Below are positions 2,909 to 41,301 of a stretch of DNA of 43,715 nt, in pieces. The stretch lies in assembly GCA_025454975.1 (NCBI GenBank), contig JALONK010000028.1:1-43715 (forward strand). The letters are read 5' to 3'. How positions within the stretch are numbered: the stretch's first letter is position 1; each line of letters begins with the position of its first letter. A program made the position numbers and the translations under genes. Below the pieces are notes generated by a model. That model saw nothing but the letters and a program-made list of their open reading frames with translations, was not told the origin of the DNA and did not search any database. The DNA comes from Bacteroidia bacterium. GTDB lineage: Bacteria > Bacteroidota > Bacteroidia > UKL13-3.

Positions 2909-3298
2909 TTACAGCGTACGGGCTAAAAAAGTGTTATACTCCATTTTTAATTCCCTAAACAGTTTATTAAACTGTTGCATCCTATCATTCAATGTATCAT
3001 CCAGAGCCAGTTTACGGTGATCGGCAGCTATTGGATTCTCTTTAATATTATTTTCGATAATTTTCTCAGCTTCTTTTACATCATGGGTTAATAGTTGTAA
3101 CTCATTCAGGTGTGTAATAAATTTATTTTGAAACGACTCAACAAAGGCAGTTACTTCAATTTTGTTATTTGCTGTTGCAACCGTTTCAAGGTTTTTACGG
3201 AAATAGGCAATTTCATCTTTACTTAAGGCTAACTCATTTAGCCAGTTTTTGTAGATATTGTGTAAGTCGTAAATGTAGGTGGTGTTAATTTTGTTCAT
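2909..3298 (-). CDS. Small coiled-coil protein, unknown function
   Basis: I do not recognise the family. The product is about 129 residues, strongly helical and charged, with heptad-like spacing of Leu/Ile through the middle and a final stretch containing MQQFNKLFRELKMEYNTF. It has no signal peptide or membrane segment, so it is probably cytosolic. ATG at 3298 is chosen because the open frame extends upstream only to a TTG with nothing to support it. A possible promoter lies just upstream on the minus strand (CAACTTTG with a TTG 20 nt before it). It is the first gene of the methyltransferase operon, but that gives no firm functional hint. Confidence 0.65.
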   Translation of the reverse strand: MNKINTTYIYDLHNIYKNWLNELALSKDEIAYFRKNLETVATANNKIEVTAFVESFQNKFITHLNELQLLTHDVKEAEKIIENNIKENPIAADHRKLALDDTLNDRMQQFNKLFRELKMEYNTFLARTL

Positions 3299-3467
3299 AA
3301 CTTTAAAATTGATAAACAAAGTTGGTTCAAATTGTATTGACTAACAATGACATCCTTCAACGCTTGATTTGACACATATCAGGTTGTATGCATAAATTTT
3401 TCATAATTCATTACTGTTTGTTAAAATCAGGCATAGTTTTTAGTACTTTTACCGCAAAAAAGTAAGT

Positions 3468-4879: not shown

Positions 4880-6178
4880 ATGAATAAGGTATTTTTAATT
4901 GCTAAACGTGAATATTTATCTAGGGTTAGGAAAAAATCATTTTTATTAATGACCATTCTAGCGCCGGTGTTAATTACTATATTTTATGGTTTGATATTTT
5001 ACTTTGCCATCAATAGGGATATAGGAAGTTCGAAAAAAGATATTTATGTTATTGATGAAGGTAAGCAATATGCCAATCAACTTAAAAGCAACAATCAAGT
5101 AAACTTTATCATTGGCGATACAGTTATCTATAACCCAACAATTTTCTTAGTACAAACCTCTTTTTATGGAATACTTACTATTCATGATACTAATTATCAA
5201 GTTAAACCAAAGGTTACTTTAATTTCAAAAGATGAGGTTAGCTTATCCACCATTAGTCAGATAGAAAAACAACTTACTGACATCATTAAAACCGTGCGAT
5301 TAAAAGCATCCGGCATTGATGAATCAGTATTAAAAATTGTAGAGAAAACATCGGTTTCTGTACAAGCCTCAAAAGCCACTTCAACTGTAATTAAAGACAG
5401 TAATGTAGGTGCTAATACTATTATTGGCTATGTTGGTGCAATCATAATTTATTTCTTCATTTTTCTGTATGGTGTTCAAATTATGCGTGGGGTAATTGAA
5501 GAAAAATCAAACCGAATTGTAGAGGTTATTATTTCATCAGTAAAACCTTTTGAGCTCATGCTTGGGAAAATTTCAGGCATTGCACTGGTGGGATTAACAC
5601 AATTTGCTATTTGGGTAATTTTAGGAGCTGTTTTTTCAGGAAATGTAAGCGGTTTAATTTTAGCAGGTATGGAAAATAACGTTGCGTTGGAACAACTAAA
5701 TAAAAGTCCTGATGCAGGTGAAATTGGAGGTATATTGGTTGGACTAAGTGGTTTTGATTTTTCTTACTACATAAGCATGTTTGTGTTTTACTTTTTAGGC
5801 GGATATTTATTTTATGGTTCATTATTCGCAGCAGTTGGTTCGGCCGTTGATAACGAAACCGACACCCAACAATTTATGTTTCCACTAACATTACCATTGA
5901 TATTTTCACTAGTAATTGCACAAAGCGCAATCACTTCCGACCCTCATGGTTCTCTTGCGGTTTGGTTATCTATTATTCCATTCACCTCCCCTATTGTAAT
6001 GATGGTAAGGTTACCATTTATTGAACCGGGCTGGCAGTTATGGATATCAATGATAAGTTTAATTGCCGGCTTTATCTTCACTACCTACTTGGCTTCTCGT
6101 ATTTATCGTATTGGCATATTAATGTATGGACAAAAACCAAGCTATAAAAAAATATGGAAGTGGATGTTCAATTCATAA
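4880..6178 (+). CDS. ABC-2 type transporter permease (NatB-like)
   Basis: Inner-membrane permease of the ABC-2 / NatB (YhaP) type. One membrane helix near the N terminus (about residues 22-44) is followed by a large extracytoplasmic domain (45-175) and then a cluster of five or six helices to about residue 412. The segment containing GVIEEKSNRIVEVIISSVKP is the signature these permeases carry after their second helix. The substrate is unknown. Oddly, no ATP-binding partner is adjacent; the upstream gene is thioredoxin-like and the downstream gene is ruvB. The ATPase must be encoded elsewhere, or this copy works with a shared one. Confidence 0.85.
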   Translation: MNKVFLIAKREYLSRVRKKSFLLMTILAPVLITIFYGLIFYFAINRDIGSSKKDIYVIDEGKQYANQLKSNNQVNFIIGDTVIYNPTIFLVQTSFYGILTIHDTNYQVKPKVTLISKDEVSLSTISQIEKQLTDIIKTVRLKASGIDESVLKIVEKTSVSVQASKATSTVIKDSNVGANTIIGYVGAIIIYFFIFLYGVQIMRGVIEEKSNRIVEVIISSVKPFELMLGKISGIALVGLTQFAIWVILGAVFSGNVSGLILAGMENNVALEQLNKSPDAGEIGGILVGLSGFDFSYYISMFVFYFLGGYLFYGSLFAAVGSAVDNETDTQQFMFPLTLPLIFSLVIAQSAITSDPHGSLAVWLSIIPFTSPIVMMVRLPFIEPGWQLWISMISLIAGFIFTTYLASRIYRIGILMYGQKPSYKKIWKWMFNS

Positions 6179-25105: not shown

Positions 25106-25188
25106 TGATGGTGAATTATATCCCATTCAAAAATACATGAACATGAGTTGGAATAGTGTACACTTTTACACAGCAAATTTGTGAACTT

Positions 25189-25659
25189 ATGACAAACGCT
25201 ACACTACAAAAACAAATTTTTCAGGCTGCTTGTGCTTTTATAGGACTAGGAATGATTGCAGGTGCTTTCGGCTCACATCTATTAAAAGGCCACATCAAAG
25301 ACAGCGAAATGCTAGGATTTGAAACAGCCGTTCGATATCAACTATTTAATGGAATAGGATTATTGATTATTGCTATAGGCATCCGTCGCATTAAGGAAGA
25401 TGTAGCCAAGGTTGTTTTTGCATTAATTGTGATTGGAATTTTGTTGTTTAGTGGTAGTTTATACTTGCTAACAACTAGTATTATATGGGCAAATGTTCGT
25501 TTAAAATGGTTGGGGATAATTACGCCATTTGGTGGTTTGTCGCTCATCTCAGCTTGGTTATATCTGGCATATAAAGGATTTAAACCCAGTTCAAATGGAA
25601 GTTCAGGAGATAAGATTATGAAGATGCAAAGAAGAACTCAACCCTCTGATGAGGAATAA
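25189..25659 (+). CDS. DUF423 (YgdD-like) membrane protein
   Basis: Small inner-membrane protein with four hydrophobic helices. The family pattern is clear: GMIAGAFGSHLLKGH in the first helix region, ETAVRYQLFNGIGLL in the second, FSGSLYLL in the third, and TPFGGLSLISAWLYL in the last. ATG at 25189 replaces an upstream GTG; it puts the first helix at the usual distance. A hydrophilic tail of about 30 residues, longer than usual, follows the last helix. The function of the family is not established. Confidence 0.85.
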   Translation: MTNATLQKQIFQAACAFIGLGMIAGAFGSHLLKGHIKDSEMLGFETAVRYQLFNGIGLLIIAIGIRRIKEDVAKVVFALIVIGILLFSGSLYLLTTSIIWANVRLKWLGIITPFGGLSLISAWLYLAYKGFKPSSNGSSGDKIMKMQRRTQPSDEE

Positions 25660-27354: not shown

Positions 27355-28458
27355 TTATGCTTGCATTAGTTTAATAAATTCATCAAATAAATATCTACTG
27401 TCGTGCGGACCTGCAGCGGCCTCGGGATGGTACTGCACTGAAAATGCTTTTTTGTTTTTAACACGTATACCTTCAATGGTATCATCGTTTAAATTAATGT
27501 GGGTGATTTCGATGTTTGGATTATTTTTAACATCTTCGGCCAATACACTAAACCCATGATTTTGTGAGGTAATCTCACAAGTGCCTGTAAGTAAATTTTT
27601 CACCGGATGATTAAGACCTCGGTGACCATTATGCATTTTATAGGTCTTGATTCCGTTGGCTTCTGCCAGGAGTTGGTGACCTAAACATATACCAAAAATA
27701 GGAATATTTTTATCTAATAACCTGCGAATGGTTTCAACAGCATAATCCATACTTGAAGGATCACCGGGACCATTGCTTAACATAACACCATCCGGCTTAA
27801 ACTTAAGTAAGTCATCTACAGTAGATTTTGCATTATAAACTCCCAAATAACAATCCCTATCCACTAAATTTCTTAAGATGTTCTTTTTTACTCCAAAATC
27901 AAGTACGGCTACACGCTTAGAGGCAGCCTCATTGCCAACAAAATATGCCTTATCTGTAGAAACCTTGGAAGATAGTTCTAGTCCTTCCATTGAAGGTACA
28001 GCTCTCAATTCTTCTAATAGCTGCTCAACGTTTTTTTCTTCAGCAGATATTATGGCATTCATGGCTCCTTTGTTTCTTATGTGCCTAACCAGTTCTCGTG
28101 TATCAATATCAGTGATGCCAACAATATTATTTAAGGTAAAATATTCCTGAACACTCATATCAGCCATCTTTCTTGAATACGGAACATTAAATTGCTTACA
28201 TACTAATCCGGCAATTTTTATGGTATCCGATTCAATTTCTTCGTGATGTATTCCATAGTTTCCGATATGCACATTGGTTTGCACTAAGATTTGGCCATAA
28301 TAAGAAGGATCGGTAAATACTTCTTGGTAACCGGTCATGCCAGTATTGAAGCAAATTTCTCCGGTAGTAGTACCTATTTTACCTATTGAGGTTCCTTTGA
28401 ATACTGTACCGTCGGCCAATACAAGTAGTGCGGGGAATTTGTTGATTGACTTATTCAA
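27355..28458 (-). CDS. carA: Carbamoyl-phosphate synthase small subunit
   Basis: Glutamine amidotransferase subunit that supplies ammonia to CarB for arginine and pyrimidine synthesis. N-terminal CarA domain (LLVLADGTVFKG... CFNTGMTGYQEVFTDPSY) and C-terminal class I amidotransferase with nucleophile Cys258 in FGICLGHQ and His344/Glu346 in YHPEA. The start codon appears to be TTG at 28458: there is no ATG near the expected N terminus, an in-frame stop lies four codons upstream, and the transcript starts only a few nt before. carB is not adjacent. It probably forms an operon with eno. Confidence 0.95.
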   Translation of the reverse strand: MNKSINKFPALLVLADGTVFKGTSIGKIGTTTGEICFNTGMTGYQEVFTDPSYYGQILVQTNVHIGNYGIHHEEIESDTIKIAGLVCKQFNVPYSRKMADMSVQEYFTLNNIVGITDIDTRELVRHIRNKGAMNAIISAEEKNVEQLLEELRAVPSMEGLELSSKVSTDKAYFVGNEAASKRVAVLDFGVKKNILRNLVDRDCYLGVYNAKSTVDDLLKFKPDGVMLSNGPGDPSSMDYAVETIRRLLDKNIPIFGICLGHQLLAEANGIKTYKMHNGHRGLNHPVKNLLTGTCEITSQNHGFSVLAEDVKNNPNIEITHINLNDDTIEGIRVKNKKAFSVQYHPEAAAGPHDSRYLFDEFIKLMQA

Positions 28459-30144: not shown

Positions 30145-32325
<2,181 letters not shown>

Positions 32326-32558: not shown

Positions 32559-33002
32559 TTAAAGTAATTTACCTAGTTCTCTTAGTTCCCTTACAATATC
32601 TTCATGCCAATAATCAGCATCAGTTACATTTATCCAATATCTTGAATCATTATATAAACAAATGATTACATAATGTAAAACGTGCCTATTATGAAAATAC
32701 TATTTCGAATAACTTTTAATTGCTTTTACTTCTTCCCATTTAATAGTTCGCTTATTTTTAAGGATAATGGTTTCTTCATCTGCTTTGATAAGAAAACGAT
32801 TTGCTGTGCGAATAATATATATGACATACACTGTAAGAAAAGTACTTAGTAAAGCTAAAATTAATAAAGCCTTCGAAACATCATTCCAATTTATTGATTC
32901 ACAAATTACAACTGTAAAGAAAAATAATACCATTAAACTTAATAAGAAATAGTATACGTGATTAGTATTTTTTACGTACAATATTTTATGGCTTGAATTC
33001 AT
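32559..33002 (-). pseudogene. Two-helix membrane protein with PH-like C-terminus, interrupted by an in-frame amber codon
   Basis: From ATG 33002 the frame encodes two membrane helices (YYFLLSLMVLFFFTVVIC and ALLILALLSTFLTVYVIYII) and then the start of a PH-like beta domain (ADEETIILKNKRTIKWEEVK). It stops at TAG (32702-32700). The same frame stays open for 46 more codons to TAA at 32561-32559. That part looks coding and continues the domain: HVLHYVIICLYNDSRYWINV, then a helix ending DIVRELRELGKLL. The layout (two helices, strands, closing helix) fits a small bacterial PH-domain protein of about 147 residues. So either it is a recent nonsense mutation, a sequencing error, or readthrough. The function is unknown. 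Confidence 0.68.
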
Positions 33003-33482: not shown

Positions 33483-34442
33483 TTATGCTTTTGGCTCCTC
33501 TTCGTTATTAGTTGGTTCTTCATTAACCGGGGTAATGGTTTCTTCTTCCTTCTTTCTAAACATCCCAATAATGCGTTTACCAAATCCACCAATAAGTGCA
33601 ATACCTCCCAATACAATCAGTTTGATATATTTTAATAAAAAAGCAAATACACCAACTTTCGCCAAAACCTTACCTGCAATTAATCCTCCTACTGTATAAG
33701 CTGCTACTTGATCAACATCAGGATTAAAATCTTTGTACTGGTTACCTTCGGTAAAAGTTGCAATTTTTATGATTTGATTAATATGCGATTTGATGTCATT
33801 TAACTGACCAATACTTCCAACTGCATTCAAACTTAAAATTCCTCTTCGTCCAAGTATTCGTACATCATAATTTAAAGTTGTATCGCCATTTTCACCAAAA
33901 ACCATTGATTTTGCCCAATGTAAAATATGTTGCTCCTGATCGTAAAATGGCTCAGATGCCCAACCTAAAACATGGATAGCATCATAACCGCGTGCTACAC
34001 GTTCTTTGTTTTCTTCTACTTCACTAGCTTGAATTTCTTTCATAAGTTCAGTGTAATCTACATCTGAGGCATCATCATCCTTAACATATCCAGAGTTTTC
34101 ATAAGAAACAACAAAAGCCCAATCTGTTATATTTGTTACTCTGTAATCTTCTTTAACTATCATCCCTAAAATACCAAGCGTACTTGGATTTCCCCAAATT
34201 TCAAATACTATCATTTCAGCATCTTTTTTGCCGATAAACTTGTATCCTTTAGGAATATTTAATGTTATTTCTTCACTTGCTTGTATTACTCCTGTTTGAA
34301 AAGTTACAGTGGAGTCGGCATGTAAAAGTTTGTTTAAATAATTTAGTTCATCACTATTTAATGAGCTTGAATCTGATGAATCGGCATAAGTTGCAGCAGT
34401 TAAAGCAACGGATAACAATAAAAATAAAAAGAATCTTTTCAT
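33483..34442 (-). CDS. DUF2167 membrane-anchored protein
   Basis: Exported protein of 319 residues: signal peptide (about 1-20, ending ATYADS), a large soluble domain, then a hydrophobic C-terminal segment (KYIKLIVLGGIALIGGF) and an acidic tail. DUF2167 features are clear: LNIPKGYKFI, WGNPSTLGILGMI, and the segment with VLGWASEPFYD followed by LHWAKSM. The function of the family is not known. It has a consensus promoter (34459-34487) and its own terminator. Confidence 0.87.
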   Translation of the reverse strand: MKRFFLFLLLSVALTAATYADSSDSSSLNSDELNYLNKLLHADSTVTFQTGVIQASEEITLNIPKGYKFIGKKDAEMIVFEIWGNPSTLGILGMIVKEDYRVTNITDWAFVVSYENSGYVKDDDASDVDYTELMKEIQASEVEENKERVARGYDAIHVLGWASEPFYDQEQHILHWAKSMVFGENGDTTLNYDVRILGRRGILSLNAVGSIGQLNDIKSHINQIIKIATFTEGNQYKDFNPDVDQVAAYTVGGLIAGKVLAKVGVFAFLLKYIKLIVLGGIALIGGFGKRIIGMFRKKEEETITPVNEEPTNNEEEPKA

Positions 34443-40407: not shown

Positions 40408-41301
40408 TTAGCGCCAAATTGGTTCGTTTCGCCAATTTGATGGAAAGCCCATTTTACTCAGTTTAATATTAGGAAACTGGTCGAATAAAGTAAAAATTTC
40501 ATCTTTAATATGGTGCCCGTAGCTTATTTCATTGTTTAAATAAATCATTGCTGATAGGATTGGAAAAATCTTTCTTCTTTGATAATTATTGGGTATGTAT
40601 GATAAAATTGGTCGAGGAGTTGCAGGCGGCCAATCATATTTATTGATAATAATACGATTCCAAATTCTGCTGTGATGTGCAATGATGTTTCTGATTACAG
40701 TTATGGTTAATAACCAACTCACCAGGTATTTTTGATTATTAAGTCCAAACTCATTTGCAATCCTGTTCTTTTCCGGTAATTGATGTTTTAGGTTGCTATA
40801 AAGTTTTGATAGTGTACCTAGTGTTAATACTTCAAGTGATTTCCAACTTTCAGGCATTTCATTGGGATGATTTTCAAAATGTTTTACGATAAACTCTTCA
40901 CTGCTTTTGCTCATATCTATGGAAATCTTTCCGCAGAAGGAAACATATCGTTTCGGATCTTGAAATATTGCCGGCAATAAATACCAATGTGGTCCGTAAG
41001 TTTGTGATAAGGTATAAATAAGTTTTGTTCGTAAGGCTATTTCAATACGTTCAATAGCATTGAAAATGATTAATCGAAAATGCCTGTCAAAATTGTATAG
41101 GTCTACTACGTCTTCAAAAAATGTATTGGGAGCAAAATGATGATTAACTGTGTTGTCTTGCATTTCCCACCAATAACCTTTTAAACGATAATAACTGATA
41201 TTATTTAAAAAATAAGCAGCATCTCTAATATTTTTAAATTGCATATCCCTGCTCTGCAACAGGGCTATTTGCTCGTGGATAGTTTTAGATGGTTTAGACA
41301 T
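40408..41301 (-). CDS. Abi_2 family (AbiD/AbiF-like) abortive-infection protein, HEPN RNase type
   Basis: Predicted phage-defence or toxin protein of 297 residues. The N-terminal motif SYYRLKGYWW (36-45), the segment YNFDRHFRLIIFNAIERIEIALRTKL (69-94, quoted in part as FDRHFRLIIFNAIERIE) and IRNIIAHHSRIWNR (203-216) are those of Abi_2 proteins. The last contains the HEPN catalytic pattern R-X4-H (Arg204, His209), so RNA cleavage is likely. It is flanked by two copies of a small-RNA gene in the same orientation; copy 2 ends about 70 bp before its ATG. No good TAnnTTTG box precedes it. It is the only defence-type gene in the window. Confidence 0.88.
   Translation of the reverse strand: MSKPSKTIHEQIALLQSRDMQFKNIRDAAYFLNNISYYRLKGYWWEMQDNTVNHHFAPNTFFEDVVDLYNFDRHFRLIIFNAIERIEIALRTKLIYTLSQTYGPHWYLLPAIFQDPKRYVSFCGKISIDMSKSSEEFIVKHFENHPNEMPESWKSLEVLTLGTLSKLYSNLKHQLPEKNRIANEFGLNNQKYLVSWLLTITVIRNIIAHHSRIWNRIIINKYDWPPATPRPILSYIPNNYQRRKIFPILSAMIYLNNEISYGHHIKDEIFTLFDQFPNIKLSKMGFPSNWRNEPIWR

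Follow-up and report, generated by a model that had tools for sequence, protein, structure and literature searches.

In this work, we have analysed a stretch of DNA of 43,715 nucleotides from Bacteroidia bacterium (contig JALONK010000028.1 of assembly GCA_025454975.1), here called the window, and in it a minus-strand gene (32559..33002) that is interrupted by an in-frame amber codon. Our results show that both sides of this codon match one family of small proteins, and that the intact members of the family continue through the position of the stop. We propose that the gene, which would encode a membrane protein with a PH-like domain, is accessory and dispensable, and that it has probably been broken by a recent nonsense mutation; it would then be an ordinary pseudogene, with no new mechanism involved.

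The gene opens with the ATG at 33002, which starts a frame of 100 codons (33002..32703) ended by the amber TAG at 32702-32700. Beyond it the same frame runs for 46 sense codons (32562..32699) to a TAA at 32561-32559, which makes 147 codons from the ATG to the terminal TAA, the amber included. In the list of open reading frames this frame begins at a TTG (33041), but we used the ATG as the start because the relatives align there. A single in-frame TAG with 46 open codons after it had been described in an earlier note on this DNA, whose coordinates are correct and refer to the minus strand, which it left unstated. When 20,000 sequences were simulated under each of two models, 46 open codons occurred by chance in 1.4% (intergenic dinucleotide model) or 1.6% (local model) of cases. 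By itself, then, the open run is suggestive, and it is homology that decides. Separate translation of the distal part was rejected, since a scan of its 46 codons found no in-frame ATG, GTG or TTG start.

We compared the two halves with profiles of the intact relatives, from which the broken copies had been excluded. Against the profile of 24 intact relatives the proximal part scored 53.2 bits and the distal 46 residues alone 27.2 bits, a value reached by none of the 1697 scored shuffles (best 8.9); against a profile of five intact relatives the distal residues scored 20.0 bits, and the best of 1776 scored shuffles gave 7.3. These counts cover the shuffles to which hmmsearch gave a score, as 303 and 224 of the 2000 shuffles, respectively, received none. 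The joined translation matched the profile of relatives over its full length. All 24 intact relatives run for 44-57 residues beyond the column of the TAG and none has a stop there, some of them showing an alignment gap at that column rather than a residue. The last five residues of the distal frame are LGKL and one more, and 12 of the 24 have an exact LGKL among their own last 20 residues. These results identify the 46 codons beyond the stop as the end that the truncated protein lacks. The suggestion that a single small lesion makes the difference between a complete and a truncated gene is thus supported, and orthologues ending at the same point, which would have spoken against it, were not found among the intact relatives.

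The PH-like nature of the protein was addressed by structure prediction. An AlphaFold2 (AF2) model of the read-through protein with five relatives had a mean predicted local distance difference test score (pLDDT) of 83 and a predicted template modelling score (pTM) of 0.65. It contains a strand (residues 8-12), two long helices (14-36 and 41-67), six strands (70-74, 78-81, 86-88, 92-101, 108-116 and 121-125) and a final helix (133-144), and the model of an intact relative (G024, locus L002) has the same order of elements. The two helices (32802..32963) would form a hairpin, whose membrane character is suggested by the sequence; the proximal frame would thus hold the first strand, the hairpin and the first PH-like strands. 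Most of the 50 neighbours shown by VIA-align are PH, PTB or FERM domains, or proteins with PH-like domains, which we take them to be partly from their titles and partly from general knowledge. The best neighbour had a Z of 9.1 with a root-mean-square deviation (rmsd) of 3.2 over 83 residues, only slightly above the best Z of 7-8 that is usual for models lacking a clear match; a Z below 8 may reflect a mere common arrangement. Of 802 Foldseek matches against the PDB none reached E <= 0.001, so that the PH assignment depends on VIA-align, a re-examination of Foldseek's own ranking; a sequence search of the PDB gave five matches up to E 10, the best at E 0.23 and unconvincing. The model therefore supports, at the superfamily level, a PH-like fold in which the strands of a barrel would be closed by the C-terminal helix. 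The amber, at residue 101, sits at the end of the strand 92-101, and for this reason the truncated product would be predicted to lack the two final strands and the helix that closes the fold. Both proposals of the earlier note on this point, a PH-like membrane gene and a distal part that completes its strands and closing helix, agree with the model.

In this window TAG looks to be used as an ordinary stop. Release factor RF1 is present in the genome, above its curated cut-off, and of the 30 non-overlapping window frames of at least 100 amino acids 21 end in TAA, five in TAG (the interrupted gene included) and four in TGA. After the four other TAGs the next in-frame stop comes within 4-14 codons, compared with 46 here. 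Among all 29 frames of this comparison four others stay open for at least 35 codons past their stop, all of them after TAA (2909-3319, 4880-6178, 27355-28458 and 25156-25659, open for 474, 350, 430 and 35 codons, respectively); the three longest runs probably represent a following gene that happens to share the frame. No CUA anticodon was seen among the 30 read from the 31 tRNA matches in the genome, a set that is incomplete (scoring covered 150 of the 298 first-look candidates, a partial match at the end of a contig was left unread, and neither a Glu nor an Ile tRNA appeared). Compared with shuffled sequences, the RNA downstream of the stop shows no unusual folding (z -1.23 and 0.16).

The family is sparsely distributed and its members, of about 140-160 amino acids, would consist of a short beta strand, two membrane helices and the remainder of a PH-like domain. 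We count 28 clear members, 24 intact and four broken: five in the taxonomic family of the window, three around genome G312 and 20 around genome G395. Among 64 genomes of the same taxonomic family, its own included, relatives were found in four others (G024, G046 and G012, intact, and G048, broken), and the own genome carries one copy. A class-wide sample gave matches in 5 of 395 genomes, three of them already known and two representing new lineages (G312 and G395), around which further searches matched three of the 87 genomes covered in the first case and 23 of 399 in the second; among 395 genomes sampled across the phylum, the window's own was the only one with a match. The class-wide, phylum-wide and 399-genome searches sample larger groups, with at most 9-10 candidates scored per genome, so that their misses are not firm absences. 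None of the eight other genomes of the genus, three of them at least 90% complete, yielded the gene, and no relative was found in 204 candidate stretches of viral contigs or in plasmids searched with the protein of one relative (L002). A further contig search gave one locus (L018), probably on the same contig as the G046 copy (contig 84). Several matches were dropped from the count: those in G072, G076 and G012 contig 15, which lie inside frames of other genes; G050, unsupported by the larger profile; and G029 and G012 contig 12 (E 1e-4 and 5e-4) together with G899, G1158 and G1124 (E 2.5e-8 to 7.4e-8), all possibly distant kin. A TAA is reported in the G1124 match.

Besides the window copy, three of the 27 other clear members are broken, all by frameshifts. 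In G048 contig 15 (L006) a 20-bp tandem duplication at about 1451-1490 puts the distal third of the gene out of frame, and the remainder can be read in another frame; the others are in G1041 (L088) and G1049 (L089/L093). These breaks may be assembly errors. The broken G048 copy and the intact G012 relative adjoin the same kind of gene, which from its sequence we take to encode an acyl-CoA dehydrogenase.

How old the lesion may be was approached through the state of the sequence. The window protein scored 61-75 bits as a whole, below the 96-170 bits of five intact relatives. Its ratio of distal to proximal score was 0.32-0.52, within the 0.22-0.53 of the same relatives left out in turn, so that the distal part shows no visible extra decay relative to the proximal one. 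In a neutral simulation the distal frame was still intact in a fraction of 0.69 or 0.54 of runs at 0.02 substitutions per site (indel rate 0.05 or 0.15 per substitution), and of 0.17 or 0.04 at 0.1 substitutions per site (same two rates); if it evolves neutrally, therefore, the lesion would be young. One study of bacterial in-frame stops likewise describes them as tending to last a short evolutionary time (PMC7918605). In a tree of 25 rows the end branch of the window copy is the longest (2.01, against a median of 0.34), though the tree program flags the placement of this row as unsure. Of 21 well-conserved proximal columns the window copy retains 8, a smaller share than in any other of the 25 rows, and of 11 conserved distal columns it retains 7. 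The long branch and the low proximal retention would fit a gene under relaxed constraint throughout, or one that has diverged in a lineage not sampled here.

We propose the following course of events. Translation would stop at the TAG and give a protein of 100 residues that has the membrane hairpin, while its PH-like sheet is left incomplete and the closing helix is missing. This protein would probably misfold and then be degraded, and the distal 46 codons would persist because there has been too little time for their decay. The gene would thus be a pseudogene or be becoming one.

Several observations weigh against this proposal. The long branch could equally reflect functional divergence or an unsampled lineage, and the greater divergence of the proximal part, which is the translated one, can be read either way. 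The retention of the distal columns, with no second lesion, would also fit a readthrough protein or a base-calling error. Between the G012 and G048 copies the ratio of non-synonymous to synonymous substitution rates (dN/dS) is 0.19 in the proximal part (dN 0.156, dS 0.828) and 0.09 in the distal part, the latter on just 12 synonymous sites. These low ratios indicate that the family was under purifying selection before the G048 copy broke, and hence that the membrane family has worth for some hosts.

A first alternative, which we consider unlikely while granting it a real chance, is that the TAG is absent from the living cells or is a minority allele, being a consensus error or the product of a strain mixture in a draft assembly. 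The lesion is confined to a single codon and the remaining frame is open, the assembly is a draft of 83 contigs, and the contig of one relative comes from a metagenome-assembled genome, as may also be the case here. Substitution errors are rare in a deep short-read consensus, which, if this assembly is one, speaks against an error; so does the sequence around the TAG, where AAA precedes the codon and TTTT follows three bases after it, with no long homopolymer. On the other side, a substantial share of in-frame stops is expected to be artefactual, according to PMC7918605.

The remaining alternatives take the TAG as real and give it, or the protein it ends, a use. That the 100-residue protein is functional, for instance as a membrane hairpin working without a finished PH-like domain, is very improbable in our view: the proximal frame is open and recognisable at 53.2 bits, but no intact relative ends there, the proximal half is the most diverged, and the truncation would split the predicted sheet. 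Low-level readthrough of the TAG, by which the gene would yield two proteins of different length and be regulated through leakage of the stop, would account for the preserved distal codons, and many bacterial in-frame stops are argued to be under purifying selection in PMC7918605. However, the stop is present in none of the 24 intact relatives and so is not conserved, no CUA suppressor appeared in the incomplete set of anticodons, and the RNA structure after the stop is unremarkable, and we regard readthrough as very improbable. Still more speculative is a version in which the amber is a tolerated, regulated attenuator, the cell making mostly the hairpin alone and, by rare readthrough, the finished domain, within a family that tolerates repeated splitting. 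The idea that this organism has reassigned TAG to an amino acid, in favour of which there is the open frame and nothing else, is rejected on the presence of RF1 and on the quick next stops after the other TAGs.

The surroundings of the gene were also compared. Downstream lies a peroxidase gene (30145..32316, minus strand; PF00141), presumably katG, and upstream a gene for a DUF2167 protein (33483..34442, minus strand; PF09935). The latter had no match in the eight other genomes of the genus; the peroxidase is present in four of them, with 56-61% identity. When about 1.5 kb on each side of these four peroxidases was scanned with the profile of 24 intact relatives nothing exceeded 7.4 bits (E 0.25), compared with 52.6 and 27.2 bits at the window locus, and we therefore conclude that no remnant of the gene lies within that distance of the four peroxidases. 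Among the relatives in G024, G046, G012, G312 and G395 the flanking genes differ, as they would for an accessory gene. A promoter scan gave 7 sites against a shuffle mean of 9.9, and one terminator-like site (minus strand 33362-33347, shuffle mean 0.3) lies upstream of the gene. As separate observations, the peroxidase gene in a genome of the same genus (G002, contig 77; L026/L027) appears split into two overlapping pieces, and the window also holds a gene for an Abi_2 (Abi-like) protein at 40408-41301 (PF07751, E 4.5e-54).

The results matter mainly for annotation: a patchily distributed family of PH-like membrane proteins, which has no name in the libraries searched, is represented in the window by a broken copy. 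Because 4 of the 28 clear members carry lesions, gene callers will report spurious short proteins from it. Bacterial genes with in-frame stops, as treated in PMC7918605, likewise show a nonsense codon in an otherwise coding frame and have intact relatives; here, in contrast, the stop is seen in one genome only.

Among named families, no Pfam family reached its gathering score with the window protein. There are weak matches to the STM3941 family (NCBIfam NF041635), over window residues 15-99 and with three of six members of our family matching at E up to 1, and to Cpta_toxin (PF07254), over residues 18-91 and with one of six matching. The scores (16.2 bits against a cut-off of 40, and 19.2-20.2 against a gathering score of 27.3) lie below the thresholds for membership in either, and literature searches gave one listing for STM3941 and none for DUF5381, the CptA toxin PH and the YgfX PH domain. 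PMC2817789 describes DUF304, DUF1200 and DUF2244 as small proteins, potentially of the membrane, whose PH-like domain is predicted to be intracellular, DUF2244 having two N-terminal membrane helices; none of the three was listed for six members of our family at E up to 1. That source also states that alignments of the bacterial membrane PH families suggest that beta1 is missing. The window protein differs from them in having a strand (8-12) before the hairpin, and its structural alignments start at model residues 2-8. In this it recalls EROS (8kei chain D), in which, according to PMC9767466, two membrane helices are inserted near the start of a PH domain, and with which 132 residues aligned at Z 7.8. 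The differences are an rmsd of 6.3, an identity of 12%, and the two strands that precede the helices in EROS (same source), against one here. The order of secondary structure and the alignment ranges would fit a hairpin placed after the first strand, in an arrangement like that of EROS. We regard the resemblance as an analogy of layout and no more, and one that may interest students of how the PH-like fold arose in membranes.
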